The translations under genes and the position numbers were made by a program. The notes beneath the pieces were generated by a model. It saw only the letters and a list, made by a program, of their open reading frames with translations, searched no databases and was not told where the DNA came from. 64,000 bases of DNA from Mariprofundus sp. EBB-1 (lineage in GTDB: Bacteria > Pseudomonadota > Zetaproteobacteria > Mariprofundales > Mariprofundaceae): positions 1 through 64,000 of the forward strand of contig NZ_RCFQ01000004.1 in assembly GCF_003665155.1 (NCBI RefSeq). The letters are read 5' to 3'. Positions 1,298-16,237 of the stretch are shown piece after piece. Every line of letters begins with the position of its first letter. Position 1 is the first letter of the stretch.

Positions 1298-1777
1298 TTA
1301 TTCATGGTTTTTGGCCAGGTATGGAATCACTACAGGTGGAACCAATTCGGAAACATCGCCACCCATACTAGAAATCTCTCGGATGAATCGGGATGAGACG
1401 AAGGTGTAATCTTCACGAGCCATGACAAATACTGTTTCGATGCGCTCATCGAGTCGGCGATTCATCGTTGCCATCTGAAACTCATATTCAAAATCGGATG
1501 CTGCTCGCAGACCGCGCAGTAGCGCTGTGCCCTGATGTTCATGGGCCAGATCAACCAACAGACCAGAGAATCGTACGGCCTCGACATGCTCCTCATCCTT
1601 AAATGTTTCGCGCACCATCTTCAATCGTGTCTCAACATCGAACATCGGACCCTTACCCGGATTATCGGCAACACCGATCACTACACGATCAAACATTTTC
1701 AATCCGCGTCTAGCCACATCAACATGACCCAATGTAATCGGATCAAAGGTGCCTGGATAAATTGCTGTACGCTTCAT
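1298..1777 (-). CDS. coaD: phosphopantetheine adenylyltransferase
   Basis: CoaD transfers AMP from ATP to 4'-phosphopantetheine, giving dephospho-CoA in the fourth step of coenzyme A synthesis in the cytoplasm. The N-terminus has the nucleotidyltransferase signature GTFDPITLGH at residues 9-18. The family sequence GLRAASDFEYEFQMATMNR lies mid-protein, and the SSRFIREISSMGGD segment lies near residue 130. The length of 159 residues is typical. GGAG lies just upstream of the ATG. The gene is last in the leftward series after mtnA, with a small hairpin in the intervening gap. Confidence 0.96.
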   Translation of the reverse strand: MKRTAIYPGTFDPITLGHVDVARRGLKMFDRVVIGVADNPGKGPMFDVETRLKMVRETFKDEEHVEAVRFSGLLVDLAHEHQGTALLRGLRAASDFEYEFQMATMNRRLDERIETVFVMAREDYTFVSSRFIREISSMGGDVSELVPPVVIPYLAKNHE

Positions 1778-1814
1778 GAGTACTCCATATCAATATTCAT
1801 CATCTGGCATTTAA

Positions 1815-1841
1815 GGAAGCGCTGTTTTAATCAGCGTTTCC
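1815..1841. repeat. hairpin with motif shared at 61.9 kb
   Basis: A 10-bp stem (one G-T pair) with a 7-base loop lies between mtnA and coaD. The bottom-strand arm GGAAACGCTGATTA also occurs at about 61901-61914, preceded by TTAA at both places. This suggests a short dispersed hairpin element. It could also act as a weak terminator or RNA processing site in the mtnA-coaD transcript. There is no T-run. Confidence 0.45.
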
Positions 1842-1923
1842 ATTCAGCTTATGGATGGGCTGCCAATCCGACCACATAAATTGCGAACTGATTCTTGGCA
1901 GGATGCCATGAATCAGGATCTTA

Positions 1924-2940
1924 TCAAACTGACCAGAGACCGTTCTCGCTTACAATACCTGTAAGGTTGGCACTGGGTGTGACATCAAATGCGGGGTTAT
2001 TAGCTCGCACACCGGCAGCCGCAATCCGGACATCGTGCAACTCTCCTGCTTCGTTCATTCCATCCATGCGACAGATCTCATCATCATCACGTTGTTCAAT
2101 CGGAATATCTTTTCCCGTTAGACAGGCTGTATCAAAGGTTGAACTTGGTGCTGCAACATACATCGGTACACCATGTTCTTTCGCTGCCAGTGACAATGCA
2201 TAGGTGCCAATCTTATTGGCTACATCGCCATTAGCCGCAATGCGATCTGCACCAACAACGATCGCATCCACCTTACCCTGTGCCATCATCCACGCCGCCG
2301 CTCCATCAGCCTGAATGCGACAATCAATACCTTCCTGATTTAATTCCCAGGCAGTCAAACGCGCACCTTGCAGGCGCGGTCTCGTTTCATCCACCCAGAC
2401 GAATGGGCTCTCTCCCGCTTTCGCCAACTGATAAATACCTGATGTTGCAGTGCCCCAATCAACAGCCGCGAGCCATCCGGCATTACAATGGGTGAGAATA
2501 CGGCGCTCACCTACTGCCAACAGGTCAGCCATCGTTTGACCCATGCGCTGATTTGCAGCCACCTCTGCATCGGCATAGGCCTGAGCGCGTTCTATCATTT
2601 GAGCAGCAGTCGGACTCTCTTCAGCACAGTTTTGCATGGTGTCACAGGCATGAAAAAGATTGATCGCTGTCGGACGTGTTGCACGAAAACGTGGTAACCA
2701 ATGCGTGAAGAATCCTTGTTCATCTTCCTGCCAAGCCAGCGCCAAGCCATAAGCTGCAGTCGCTCCAATTGATGGTGCGCCACGCACTTGCATGGATTCA
2801 ATGGCAATAGCCACATCTTCCGGTTTACGACTACTAACTTGCTTAAATTGATGCGGCAATAATCGTTGTTCAATCCACTCAACAGATTCCGATTCTCCAT
2901 GCCAACACACAGCTCGGCACGACTTACCATTTACCCGCAT
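1924..2940 (-). CDS. mtnA: methylthioribose-1-phosphate isomerase
   Basis: MtnA isomerises 5-methylthioribose-1-phosphate to 5-methylthioribulose-1-phosphate in methionine salvage. The substrate-binding RGAPSIG lies at residues 53-59, the catalytic cysteine is C152 in LTHCNAGWLA, and the catalytic aspartate is D232 in GADRIAANGD. The protein has 338 residues, close to the usual length, and keeps the eIF2B-alpha-like fold signature near NKIGTY. AGGGG precedes the ATG. It lies between parB and coaD with no other methionine-salvage gene in the window, so the rest of the pathway must be elsewhere. Confidence 0.95.
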   Translation of the reverse strand: MRVNGKSCRAVCWHGESESVEWIEQRLLPHQFKQVSSRKPEDVAIAIESMQVRGAPSIGATAAYGLALAWQEDEQGFFTHWLPRFRATRPTAINLFHACDTMQNCAEESPTAAQMIERAQAYADAEVAANQRMGQTMADLLAVGERRILTHCNAGWLAAVDWGTATSGIYQLAKAGESPFVWVDETRPRLQGARLTAWELNQEGIDCRIQADGAAAWMMAQGKVDAIVVGADRIAANGDVANKIGTYALSLAAKEHGVPMYVAAPSSTFDTACLTGKDIPIEQRDDDEICRMDGMNEAGELHDVRIAAAGVRANNPAFDVTPSANLTGIVSENGLWSV

Positions 2941-2979
2941 ACGAAACCCCTGGTAATTTTCTATTCATTCTTTTCGAGA

Positions 2980-3831
2980 CTATTCTGAGCGCAGTCTTCT
3001 TAACACACCATCAAGTTCAGCAGCCTGGGTGTAAGCAATACGCATTTCACCAGCTCCATTCTTCTTGCAACAAATCTGTATAGGTAATCCTAGTGTTCGG
3101 GTCAACTCTTCCTGCAATGCTATTACATCAGCATCCACTACTTTTTCTTTTGTTATTGTCGGTGCTTTGGCTGCTTTTTTTGCCTCTTGCTCCATTTGGC
3201 GAGCACTCCAACCATGATCAACACACATGCGCGCGAGACGCTCTGCCGTGTCTGTTGGCAAGCCCACCAATGGACGGGCCTGCCCCATACTTAACTGACG
3301 TAAGCCGATCATAGTCTGTATAAGGTCAGAGAGTTGTAGCAGACGAATCAAGTTACTGACCTGAACTCGAGACACTCCAACTTTTTCAGCAACTTGTTGC
3401 TGCGTACAACCAAATTCACTGATCAAGCGCTGGTATGCAGCAGCAGATTCAATGGAAGTTAAATCATCACGTTGTTCATTTTCAACAATCGCTAATTCTA
3501 ATGCTTGCAGATCACTAACATGTCGAACAACGGCTGGAATCTCTGTAAGACCAGCTGCCTGTGATGCTCTCCAACGGCGTTCACCCGCAATCAGTTCATA
3601 CCCATCACCCAGAGGACGCAATAAAACCGGCATCAATACACCATCCCGTCTAATTGAATCCGTTAATAAATTCAGCTCATCAGAAGAGAAATTTGTTCTC
3701 GGTTGATAACTATTGGGTTGAATTTTTGATATCAGAATTTGTGAAGACTGTCGCATCACTTCAGGTGTAGGTGTATCTCCCAATAGCGCATTCAGGCCAC
3801 GCCCCAGCCCACGATTTTTGATCACTGCCAT
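2980..3831 (-). CDS. parB: chromosome partitioning protein ParB
   Basis: ParB is the CTP-dependent clamp that loads at parS and marks the origin for segregation. The CTP-binding GERRWRA lies at about residues 83-89, ENEQRDDL at 117-124, and a helix-turn-helix at about 142-165 (TQQQVAEKVGVSRVQVSNLI). A C-terminal dimerisation region follows. I prefer the ATG at 3831, because GGAGGAGGGG lies immediately before it; a GTG five codons upstream (3846) overlaps that site. The gene is 31 bases downstream of parA in the same transcript. Three matching parS sites in the window support the role. Confidence 0.96.
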   Translation of the reverse strand: MAVIKNRGLGRGLNALLGDTPTPEVMRQSSQILISKIQPNSYQPRTNFSSDELNLLTDSIRRDGVLMPVLLRPLGDGYELIAGERRWRASQAAGLTEIPAVVRHVSDLQALELAIVENEQRDDLTSIESAAAYQRLISEFGCTQQQVAEKVGVSRVQVSNLIRLLQLSDLIQTMIGLRQLSMGQARPLVGLPTDTAERLARMCVDHGWSARQMEQEAKKAAKAPTITKEKVVDADVIALQEELTRTLGLPIQICCKKNGAGEMRIAYTQAAELDGVLRRLRSE

Positions 3832-12132: not shown

Positions 12133-12269
12133 GGTCTTACTCCTGTTTCCCTACTTAAAAAGGGTCGCGCATAATAAATGCCACAAACATAGTGTCAAGA
12201 ACACAATTTTTTAATCCGTAAATATTTATTAATGTGGATGATCACAATGATGCATGTATTATTCAGCCG

Positions 12270-13601
12270 ATGTCCCATATTTCGAACGATTCCTTCTGGC
12301 AACACATTTCAGACCAACTGCAGAGTGAGATTCCTGCGGCGCGGTTTGATGCGTGGATTCATTCTCTTTCAGCCCATTACAGCGATCATAAACTGACCAT
12401 AAAAGTTCCCAGTCGGTTTTTTGTTGATGGTTTAAAATCCAATTATGGGCAACGCATTACTGAAATTGCCTGTGACTTAGCCGGATCTCCTGTCACCATC
12501 AGCTATGAAGTGGATGCTTCATTGGCCAGTCATTCAGTACAAAGCGATAAGAATGAAGAACCTGCTTCTCCGGCATCTCTTGTTGATGGTTTTATTGACC
12601 CTCGTTTTACCTTTGCCAACTTCGTAGTTGGTTCCGGCAATGAATTTTGTCATGCCGCCAGCCATGCTGTGGCAGATAATCCTGGCGAGATTTATAATCC
12701 ACTCTATCTCTATGGTGGTGTTGGTCTCGGTAAAACCCATCTTATTAATGCTGTTGCCAACTGTTTAATTGATCGCGGCATTACAAAAATTGCCTATCGC
12801 ACAGGTGAACGCTTTACCAACGAACTGATTCAAGCCATTCGTAACGGTACATCTGAACAATTTAGAAACCAGTATCGTCAGGTTGATGTACTCATTATTG
12901 ATGATATCCAGTTCATTGCCGGTAAAGAGAAGACTCAGGAAGAGTTTTTCCACACCTTCAATGCACTCTATGAAGTGAAAAAACAGATTATTTTAACCTC
13001 GGATAGAAGCCCGCGTGAACTCACCAATCTTATGGAACGTCTGCGCTCCCGCTTTAACTGGGGTCTGGTTGCTGATATTCAGGCACCTGATCTTGAAACT
13101 CGCTTAGCTATTCTTTCCAGTAAAGCTGAACTGGCCGGAGTAACACTGGATAAAGATGTCGGCCACCTGCTCGCAGCTCGCATTACCAATAACGTACGTG
13201 AATTAGAGGGGGCATTAACCCGATTGACTGCGCACTCTACTTTAACAGGACGTGTTATTGATCTTACCTTTGCCCGTCATGTCTTGCGTGATCTACTGCA
13301 TGAAGAAGTACGTTCTGTGAATATTGAAGATATTCAAAAGAAGGTTGCCTCCTATTTCAATATCAACATCAGAGAAATGTCTTCAAGTAAACGCAGTAAA
13401 AACATCGCCTACCCTCGCCAGGTGGCTATGTATGCCACAAAAGAGCTTACTACCATGTCACTACCAGAAATAGGCAGGAACTTTGGTGGAAGAGATCACA
13501 CCACGGTACTGCATGCTGTACGTAAGATAAAAAAAATGCGCGATGAATCTGATGATTTCAATGAAGAAATGAACAGGATCATCAATCTACTCAAACAATA
13601 A
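12270..13601 (+). CDS. dnaA: chromosomal replication initiator DnaA
   Basis: DnaA binds DnaA boxes and opens the origin. An N-terminal DnaB-interacting domain starts FWQHISDQL. The AAA+ domain has Walker A GGVGLGKTHL at about residues 149-158 and Walker B VLIIDDIQFI. The C-terminal DNA-binding domain carries the signature GGRDHTTVLHAVRKI. I prefer the ATG at 12270, giving 443 residues and a family-typical N-terminus. A GTG at 12234 would add twelve residues. Neither has a clear ribosome-binding site. The putative origin lies immediately downstream. Confidence 0.96.
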   Translation: MSHISNDSFWQHISDQLQSEIPAARFDAWIHSLSAHYSDHKLTIKVPSRFFVDGLKSNYGQRITEIACDLAGSPVTISYEVDASLASHSVQSDKNEEPASPASLVDGFIDPRFTFANFVVGSGNEFCHAASHAVADNPGEIYNPLYLYGGVGLGKTHLINAVANCLIDRGITKIAYRTGERFTNELIQAIRNGTSEQFRNQYRQVDVLIIDDIQFIAGKEKTQEEFFHTFNALYEVKKQIILTSDRSPRELTNLMERLRSRFNWGLVADIQAPDLETRLAILSSKAELAGVTLDKDVGHLLAARITNNVRELEGALTRLTAHSTLTGRVIDLTFARHVLRDLLHEEVRSVNIEDIQKKVASYFNINIREMSSSKRSKNIAYPRQVAMYATKELTTMSLPEIGRNFGGRDHTTVLHAVRKIKKMRDESDDFNEEMNRIINLLKQ

Positions 13602-13830
13602 ACCATCAGAAGTGCCCTGAATAACGGCTTGGCACTGCACTCCTACATCAATAATAGCGAAACGGTTCTTGTCACAGGAATAGTTCCTGCGTCACATCCA
13701 TCGTTTTCTTTTAAGTATGTTTCTGAAAAAACACCTCTTTCCTGATCGCCTCCAATAAGATTATCTGGTGATAATATATTCATAATAACTGACAAAAAAC
13801 TACCTATTTATGATTTTTAGCCCCATGTAA

Positions 13831-14050
13831 ATCATGTGCATACTACCCCTCATCACCTGTGGACAAGATGGTTATAACTGGCATCCATGACAATTTCACA
13901 AACAACACAATCAACCATTCACATATTATCCACAGAAAACCGGAGTATCTGTTCACATATTTTAAGAAAAATTATGAAACAGGCTAAAGCTTTTATCACT
14001 TATACACCTTGTTCACAGGCCCTATGACTACTACTAATTTTTTTATAAAT
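13831..14050 (+). repeat. origin module copy A
   Basis: The sequence aligns without gaps to 14896-15115 at a constant offset of 1065 bases, with 149 of 220 positions identical by hand count (about 68%). The best-conserved parts are the first 20 bases, the AATCAACNATTCACATA segment at 13909, and the final 60 bases with CACAGGCCCTATGA. It carries a perfect DnaA box at 13926 and TTATACACC at 14000. Confidence 0.9.
13926..13934 (+). promoter_or_regulatory. DnaA box (TTATCCACA)
   Basis: This is the only perfect consensus DnaA box I found in the intergenic region. It lies in module copy A. The corresponding position in copy B (14991-14999) reads CTGTCCACA. Confidence 0.85.
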
Positions 14051-14299
14051 ATGGGTATCTAAAAGAGTAGAGCAATAACTGGGCACTACAAATATAACTG
14101 CTAACTTGCTAGCTATAAAATAATTGAAAACATACAGAAACTTCAACAAGCAGATGATTCATCCTGGGAGATATAAATATATAATAATGAAAAATATACT
14201 AAAGCATGAATTAATTCATAAATAAAACGATTAAAAAAACCAATAACCAATTGAATCGAAGACTAAAATCGGCCGTTAGTATTTTGGCGAATAATTTAT

Positions 14300-14845
14300 T
14301 TATCTAAATATGTATTGAGATACTAGAACCGTATCTCCGATCTTAACTAATGATGCTCTAGGGATTTTATATCTAACAGTTTCTCCTGATTCCATTTTTA
14401 TAGTCATATAACCTTTTATCATTAGATCCAGATGAGTTTTTATGAACAACGCCTTTAACTGCTTTAATATTTTTTGTCAGATATTGATAGAAAATAGACA
14501 CTTAATAACTAGGTAATCATTATTATAAAGACCACTAGAAAGAGTTTTTGATTTCGTTTCTTTAGATCTAGGTTATTTACTAGTTCATAAGCAGACTTAT
14601 TCTGCTATTCGAATGTAATAAAGTCTTCATTCATCCAAAGAGCCTCACACTTCATTATTTAACTCATAACCCAGACAATAAAACCCAGTACTTTATACGC
14701 ATAAAATATACTATTTATCATCAATATTGATGTAAAAACAAACTTTTTTCATCTTTTTAGTAGATGGTATGAGTTCTTCTGCACAGTCTGTTTAAAAAAC
14801 TAATTCAATGGGTAGCAGGATTTTTTTCTTTATTTCTGTGTTCAT
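14300..14845 (-). pseudogene. decayed gene between the two origin modules
   Basis: On the bottom strand, protein-like fragments follow one another in different frames, broken by stops and frameshifts. Examples are MNTEIKKKILLPIELVF, then after a stop TDCAEELIPSTKKMKK, later NEDFITFE, QNKSAYELVNNLDLKKRNQ, LTKNIKAVKGVVHKNSSG, and finally GETVRYKIPRASLVKIGDT close to the last stop. The last two fragments join if one base is removed near 14417. I do not recognise the family. AT-rich DNA can give lysine- and isoleucine-rich frames by chance, but the orderly series and one direction argue for a real former gene. Confidence 0.42.
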
Positions 14846-14895
14846 CCAATGAATCTAAAACTCAGTTTTATTTTTTCCTCTCCATAAGCACGCAT

Positions 14896-15115
14896 ATCCT
14901 GTGCACAATACCCCTGAACAGTTGTGGATTGATTGAGTATAAGTCGCGAAAACGATAAGCTAGCGATCGATATAATCAACGATTCACATACTGTCCACAG
15001 TAATTTATAGTATGTGTCCACATCACAAAAACTTATTTATTAAGCAGAGTAAGGCTTTTACGACTTATCCACTTCGTCCACAGGCCCTATGATGATGACT
15101 AATTTCTTTAATAAA
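14896..15115 (+). repeat. origin module copy B
   Basis: This is the second copy of the 220-bp module, ending 21 bases before dnaN. It carries TTATCCACT at 15065, at the position equivalent to TTATACACC in copy A, and several TGTCCACA-like words. It also overlaps the region where the dnaN promoter and leader should be. Confidence 0.9.
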
Positions 15116-15136
15116 TAAGAGAAAAAGGAAGTAGGT

Positions 15137-16237
15137 ATGCATTTAACCATAACCAGAGCGTCTTTATTACAGTCTGTACAGCATTGTCAGAGCATTGTTG
15201 AAAGACGTCATACTATTCCAATTCTTGCTAATCTTTTATTAGAGGCGAAAGATAACTTACTATCGATTACCGCTACTGACCTGGAAGTTGGTTTACGTAG
15301 TCAATCTACTGCCGATGTGAAAGCCGAAGGATCAATAACTGTATCTGCACGTAAATTATTTGAAATTATTAAAGAGCTGGATCCTGAAGAGGATGTTAGC
15401 TTAGAAACAGGTGATGGATTTATAGCGATTCGCAGTGGTCGCTCTCGTTTCAGAGTCGCTTCACTTGCTGCAGGTGAATTTCCATCTATTTCTGAAGAAT
15501 CTAATGAAGCATCCATTTCATTATCTAGCGATACCATGCGTGATATGATTTCTGCTACCAGTTTTGCCATGTCCACAGATGAAACAAGAAAGTATCTTAC
15601 GGGTACACTGTTTGAAATTGATGAACAACAAATGTTGCGATTAGTGACAACAGATGGGCATCGATTAGCACTATCTGAAATCCGATTAGAACAGACCTCT
15701 GAAAAGAAAACCTGCATTGTGCCAAGGAAAGCAGTGATTGATTTAAGTAAATTGTGTGATCATTGTGAGGAGCAAATAGAACTCTCTCTTGGTGAACGTC
15801 AAATCAAGGTGAAAGCGGGTTCAAATGTATTGGTTTCAAAATTGATTGATGCACGCTTCCCTGTTTATCAGGATGTGATTCCTGTTGATAACCCATCAAA
15901 AGCAGTCGTTGAACGAACCCCTTTTGATCAGGTGTTGCGTCGTAGTATGATTGTTGCCAATGAGTTTACCCATGATATCCGTCTGGTGTTTTCTGAGCAG
16001 GGAATTGATGTATCAGCACATAATACCGAACAGGAAGAAGCGGAAGAGCATATTGCAGCAGATTATAATGGTTCGGAAGTTGCGGTAGGTTTTAATGGTA
16101 AATATTTACGTGATACATTGAGTGCGATTAAATCTCCCTCTGTGTCCATCGCATTGAAAGATGAGTTATCCCCTATTCTTATTTCCAGTGATGAGCATCA
16201 GCAATCCAGGTATGTTATTATGCCAATGCGGATTTAG
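15137..16237 (+). CDS. dnaN: DNA polymerase III beta subunit (sliding clamp)
   Basis: DnaN forms the ring that tethers the replicative polymerase. The protein has 366 residues and three similar clamp domains. The second begins near the RKYLTGTLFEIDEQQMLRLV stretch, and the C-terminus YVIMPMRI matches the family ending. AAGGA precedes the ATG closely. It is first in the dnaN-recF-gyrB series and starts 21 bases after origin module B. Confidence 0.97.
   Translation: MHLTITRASLLQSVQHCQSIVERRHTIPILANLLLEAKDNLLSITATDLEVGLRSQSTADVKAEGSITVSARKLFEIIKELDPEEDVSLETGDGFIAIRSGRSRFRVASLAAGEFPSISEESNEASISLSSDTMRDMISATSFAMSTDETRKYLTGTLFEIDEQQMLRLVTTDGHRLALSEIRLEQTSEKKTCIVPRKAVIDLSKLCDHCEEQIELSLGERQIKVKAGSNVLVSKLIDARFPVYQDVIPVDNPSKAVVERTPFDQVLRRSMIVANEFTHDIRLVFSEQGIDVSAHNTEQEEAEEHIAADYNGSEVAVGFNGKYLRDTLSAIKSPSVSIALKDELSPILISSDEHQQSRYVIMPMRI

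Follow-up and report, generated by a model that had tools for sequence, protein, structure and literature searches.

In the window, the 64,000-nucleotide stretch of DNA analysed here as a whole, the genes run from the rnpA/yidC side through dnaA, a 1.5-kb gap, dnaN and recF to gyrB, names that we assigned by reading the protein sequences. Both genes flanking the gap lie on the plus strand: dnaA (12234–13601) is an ORF of 455 amino acids, the protein that adjoins dnaN in relatives, and dnaN (15137–16237) is an ORF of 366 amino acids that served as the query for finding those relatives, which belong to Mariprofundus, iron-oxidising Zetaproteobacteria. The genus sample comprised 23 genomes including the window's own (G000); G009 gave no DnaN match, and dnaA–dnaN spacers were read in the other 22, among them the sister genome G006, whose DnaN is 99% identical to that of the window, and M. 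erugo (G002).

Module alignment places two complete oriC modules of ~245 nt in the dnaA–dnaN gap of the window, both on the plus strand, at 13826–14070 and, adjoining dnaN, at 14892–15136. The left module aligns over its full length and with few small gaps to the right module and to the single-module origins of the genus, and the two window modules are 78% identical over 74 nt and 69% identical over 222 nt. They have in common the order of their elements and, with few small gaps, the spacing: a CTGTGGAT box, a TTGAGTATAA-like stretch and a TTATCCACA-like box, followed by a tandem pair of boxes, CCTATGA with trios, an AT-rich end and the dnaN leader. A pattern scan locates the left unwinding core at 14000–14036 (+), where boxes precede the trio element; DnaA-box-like TTATACACC (14000–14008) and TTGTTCACA (14009–14017) are followed by CTACTACTA (14028–14036), which reads as three 3′-GAT-5′ DnaA-trios on the opposite strand. 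The right core, found by the same scan, spans 15065–15097 (+) and consists of TTATCCACT (15065–15073), TCGTCCACA (15074–15082) and ATGATGATG (15089–15097). A loose pattern of DnaA-box plus trio occurs in 22 of the 33 modules collected from the genus versus 4% of shuffles, and three perfect consensus trios are found, among the 33, only in the left copies of G000 and G006. With at least two DnaA-box clusters near dnaA and other DNA between them, the window has the layout by which multipartite origins are defined. A search of 13500–15200 for RNA families gave no match. The gap between dnaA and the left module also holds one arm of a 16-nt inverted repeat (94%; 13784–13799) whose other arm lies in the spacer (14470–14485); scored against each other as reverse complements, the two arms reach 34, above all 200 shuffles (maximum 33).

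Between the modules lie 738 AT-rich bases (14131–14868; GC of 14040–14880, 28%). In G006, both modules are present, and opposite the 738 bases of the window stand ~106 unalignable ones, with no significant similarity between the two (P = 0.17). Outside the spacer, the window and G006 are 90.8% identical in the gap from dnaA to the left module, 88.9% in the left module and 96.6% in the right module (over 14870–15136). A sister genome that carries both modules around a different, short spacer argues that the duplication is common to the pair and the spacer is not, a conclusion we consider well supported by the alignments. The initial annotation had proposed that the origin was either split by an insertion or duplicated together with a gene that later died. 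The first proposal falls because both modules are full-length copies; the second does not agree with G006, which has the duplication without any such gene, and hence a dead gene does not explain the duplication. What stands of that proposal is the presence of two origin modules with intervening DNA that is absent from the sister. Whether the window gained this DNA or G006 lost it is less clear-cut, and replacement on both sides is possible since the remnant in G006 has no similarity to the window spacer.

A second sister pair behaves in the same way. G001 and G015 are 85% identical until ~35–50 bases beyond the left module and 97% identical starting ~30 bases before the right module, and the sole best local similarity of their inter-module stretches is a 37-base piece that is itself the end of the left flank. 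Taken together, the two pairs indicate faster turnover in the inter-module gap than in the non-coding DNA to its left. Among the inter-module stretches of six genomes (the window, G012, G001, G015, G011 and G002), 14 of 15 pairs are no more similar than shuffles, the exception being the G001/G015 piece just described. Nor does the window spacer derive from its neighbours by co-duplication of dnaA or dnaN pieces, a candidate that we rejected because it resembles neither gene (forward P = 0.42 and 0.79); when the five other spacers were compared with the window dnaA and the initial 700 bases of its dnaN, the only match was 15 exact nt of dnaA in G012. A second copy of the spacer in its own genome was likewise rejected, the next best hit being a 21-nt match at a site of the motif described below, and a search of plasmids with the spacer DNA gave no match.

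One part of the spacer has similarity elsewhere. In a search of 61 genomes with the spacer DNA, in which at most nine candidates per genome were scored, matches at E ≤ 0.01 were confined to ~14698–14760, which has similar stretches at numerous sites of G009 and G012, apart from a single 21-nt match in G034 (E = 0.005); seven phage records gave short, weak matches (E = 0.005–0.2), the best of which covers the same region. Here we find a promoter/operator-like motif (14679–14754, minus strand) that points left and contains the palindrome ATCATCAATATTGATG (14717–14732). Exact copies of the palindrome number 47 in G012 and 25 in G009 when both strands are counted, corresponding to 24 and 17 places; G000 has 2 and the other 58 of the 61 genomes 0–2 each, and the backward control has 0. 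When up to three mismatches are allowed, G000 has four motif places, those outside the window being C35:8121, C24:28288 and C28:1810. Alignment of 44 copies (24 places in G012, 17 in G009 plus one near-copy, and 2 in G000), oriented by a rule that favours the A-rich upstream side, reveals the palindrome preceded by A-rich sequence and, in many copies, followed ~21 bases on by a TGTAG-like element. Of 39 usable G009/G012 copies, nine were dropped for their upstream letters; against a profile built from the other 30, the window copy exceeds shuffles in its upstream flank (P = 0.002) and on its promoter side (P = 0.005), with a score below that of most training copies. The genes neighbouring the motif are mixed, several appearing by eye to encode exported or lipoprotein-like products. 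One copy in the window's own genome (G000:C35, L004 ~1505–3051) sits between a response-regulator-like ORF and ORFs that we take to be TnsA/TnsB-like. No paper containing the letters of the palindrome was found in the literature searched. We interpret the motif as a putative operator with a promoter, whose direction favours former leftward transcription of a gene of at most ~118 codons. Because the motif points left, such a gene could start near 14655, and the fragments to the right of 14754 would lie outside it.

The bottom strand of the spacer had been read initially as one dead gene of about 180 codons, broken into protein-like fragments in changing frames. The fragments are there: five pieces (14608–14655, 14512–14604, 14467–14508, 14415–14501 and 14303–14413, all minus strand) make up a candidate small-gene remnant of at most ~118 codons at 14303–14655, with a frame change near 14414 and with GETVRYKIPRASLVKIGDT (14330–14386, minus strand) inside a 58-codon stop-free run. 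They are not above what chance produces, however, as similar fragments arise in shuffled sequence, and a single gene of 180 codons is unlikely because the motif at 14679–14754 lies in the middle of its span. In 2000 dinucleotide shuffles, the 58-codon run is matched in 43% of cases for 14280–14860 and the longest stop-free run gives P = 0.52 for 14131–14868; runs of at least 30 amino acids give P = 0.46 and 0.07 for the same two intervals. Amino-acid make-up (P = 0.56; 500 shuffles) and the best chain of fragments on one strand (P = 0.19; 300 shuffles) are equally unremarkable, and the top strand has fragments too, of 48 amino acids. These tests on fragments and chains, together with homologs not having been found, favour a plain non-coding AT-rich spacer left by repeated indels, in which the fragments would be a chance reading of 28% GC DNA; we put this account of the spacer's content at somewhat better than even. 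The best of six hexamer frames does fall on the bottom strand, at ~14327, but 95 of 100 shuffles reach its score, under a null that is flawed in that the training set included the spacer itself, and we place no weight on this score. The dispersed promoter-like motif counts against a plain spacer, as it gives that part of the DNA the history of a regulatory region.

The same motif, directly upstream of the fragments, is one reason to entertain a decayed small gene at 14655–14303 (minus strand), no longer than ~118 codons and encoding an N-terminal membrane helix and a C-terminal beta-rich domain, in which four short strands are predicted. The 112 codons of the chosen pieces have 64% purines at position 1 and GC contents of 38, 27 and 24% at the three positions, the pieces having been chosen post hoc. 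With three different sets of limits, a frameshift-tolerant codon path consistently scores higher on the bottom strand (P = 0.18, 0.03 and 0.08) than on the top strand (P = 0.89, 0.68 and 0.93). For comparison, 12 artificially broken genes reached z = 1.6–9.8, versus 1.0, 2.3 and 1.5 for the window, a control whose power on a gene of 28% GC is limited because the training genes had 40–46% GC. The bottom-strand coding signal is thus at most weak, and we see no clear Shine-Dalgarno sequence by eye. We regard a decayed gene as a doubtful reading, tempered by the consideration that a fast-evolving small gene could escape homology searches, so that a missing homolog does not amount to proof of absence. 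Such a decayed gene is compatible with the explanation of the locus that we prefer (see below).

The search for protein relatives yielded no convincing homolog; with similar fragments also arising in shuffles, both of the grounds for refutation that the initial annotation had named for its dead gene apply. Nothing in Pfam or NCBIfam came near a cut-off, the best matches being Pilin_N (E = 0.026) and Tet(46) (E = 0.049), and PHROGs and the PDB gave nothing better than E = 0.11 and E = 0.053, respectively. The very weak profile matches might be taken to favour a gene, but shuffled peptides draw Pfam matches too (2 of 10, best E = 0.074), a small control relative to which Pilin_N is somewhat better. 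Membership of DUF7489 (PF24315; E = 0.07–0.18) led nowhere, since its 12 and 13.5 bits are below the family cut-off of 27 bits; DUF7489 was detected in none of 299 genomes and none of 14 controls, which makes this family uninformative either way. Translated searches had best foreign E values of 0.098 in 61 genomes and 0.014 in 398 genomes, and none at or below 0.02 in a further set of 368 genomes, where the lack of any positive genome makes the empty answer uninformative on its own. By eye, the weak foreign matches from the 61 genomes, for some of which the strand is uncertain, included no protein of the expected make-up, and several were plainly other genes. Plasmids (best E = 3) and phages (best E = 1) gave no relative either, and none of the pattern matches in genome contigs (285) and viral contigs (46) was confirmed. 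The predicted structure has a confidence of 59.7, no better than the 63.9 of a control fragment, and the fold of the 58-residue run is too uncertain for structure comparison. One membrane protein encoded next to a motif site in G009 was set aside, its similarity to the spliced peptide reaching only E = 3.3.

The repetition of the module extends beyond the window. Comparison of spacers across the genus Mariprofundus shows more than one module in 7 of the 22 readable genomes (G000, G006, G012, G001, G015, G011 and G002), with three modules in M. erugo, and one of the seven, G011, is a one-contig genome; in the remaining 15, spacers of 247–339 nt leave room for one module. On the DnaN tree, the multi-module trait needs five changes, at least three of which, as gains or as losses, are forced by well-supported (starred) branches. 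The trait does not cluster clearly there, with 83 of 500 shuffles of the labels needing as few changes. In the module tree, which has only 10 starred branches among its 30 inner ones, left copies join the right copies of their own clade. From these trees, the module seems to have been duplicated separately, and an origin copied more than once in the genus; an older duplication or a single gain, with losses and gene conversion, is a possible alternative. We are unsure whether G012 (spacer ~240) shares the duplication of the window because its two copies group with each other and its left copy matches that of the window only in short pieces.

Extra DNA is present in further gaps as well. In the dnaA–dnaN gap of M. 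erugo P3 (L087:988–3000), the leftmost of three modules lies between 48-nt inverted repeats with dispersed copies elsewhere in that genome, and an IS-like transposase fragment was noted by eye upstream; the two features hint at IS-assisted movement of an origin module. In the L082 gap, a foreign-looking ORF lies between dnaA and the single origin module, and in the L091 gap a MITE-like piece with the ends GGAAGCTCTGAA...TTCAGAGCTTCC was noted by eye beside the origin module.

The copies differ in constraint. Across the two sister pairs, with module tails excluded, differences affect 9 of 466 columns in right modules versus 48 of 469 in left modules. Within the left module, the core differs at 5 of 124 columns versus 43 of 345 in the rest of the module, upstream (P = 0.009; two sister pairs); for the window and G006 alone, the counts are 3 of 62 in the left core versus 22 of 173 upstream, and 0 of 61 in the right core. 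The left copy thus appears, from its pattern of substitution, to be fast-evolving with the unwinding core kept. Its upstream part is no better conserved than the adjacent gap in G000/G006 (P = 0.26), a pattern that slow decay could also produce. This, and the faster evolution of left copies in general, raises the question of whether the left module is a relic, a duplicate of the origin that no longer works. The trio pattern is lacking in 11 of 33 modules, among which are, as expected of relics, the M. erugo middle copy and the left ones of G001, G015 and G011, but the right copies of the latter three genomes lack it too. Moreover, the left core is conserved beyond its surroundings, and the seven left copies as well as the M. 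erugo middle copy align to single-module origins with few small gaps. We consider a relic rather unlikely.

The reading that we prefer, to which we assign a probability of about 70%, is that 14131–14868 is foreign or rearranged AT-rich DNA between two complete, earlier-duplicated oriC modules of a multipartite origin, in a gap that turns over freely. The spacer piece would have been gained in the lineage of the window; a small leftward gene that has since disappeared or decayed beyond recognition may have been part of it. On this reading, both modules would act together as one multipartite origin, with DnaA bound at both clusters. The main unwinding site would be the right module, adjacent to dnaN and more constrained, and the left module, its boxes and trios kept, would serve as a second or an auxiliary such site. 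DNA would enter and leave the tolerant gap between the two, and the dispersed repeats in M. erugo and the ORF in L082 are instances of extra DNA in other gaps. It is improbable that the locus instead holds two or three complete origins, each active by itself, within 1–2 kb, with meeting forks that make the gap a hotspot of breakage and DNA capture, an idea that would account for wholesale gap replacement between sister species with flanks 85–97% identical.

In Bacillus subtilis and Helicobacter pylori, clusters of DnaA-boxes flank dnaA, and one side unwinds. The window resembles these bacteria in having two DnaA-box clusters near dnaA and an unwinding core of DnaA-box, spacer and trio, and differs from them in having full modules (two, as against three in M. 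erugo), each with core elements, in the single dnaA–dnaN gap. PMC4403523 names the origins of both bacteria as bipartite. Both window modules fit the search pattern of the basal unwinding system, BUS, as set out in PMC8287927 (a DnaA-box with at most two mismatches, a spacer of at most 16 bp and at least three NAN trios), which describes one BUS per origin, unlike the repeated module of the window. The literature searched on origins, mostly outside subscription journals, showed no report of a duplicated oriC in Mariprofundus. The bacterial chromosome is taken to have a single origin (PMC4403523). In several species of Mariprofundus the complete module is present two or three times, apparently from more than one event, and the genus thereby offers a natural test of the cost of an extra origin, of the parts of oriC that are required and of the way in which bipartite origins come about; the dead gene itself is of little importance. 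The same review (Gao 2015, PMC4403523) lists putative double origins in Acidaminococcus, M. bovis BCG Pasteur and others, which are like the present case in having more than one oriC-like region per chromosome, some explained by duplication. In its two cases with copied genes, dnaA or a whole gene cluster is present twice, unlike Mariprofundus, where only the ~245-bp module is repeated, in several species of the genus.
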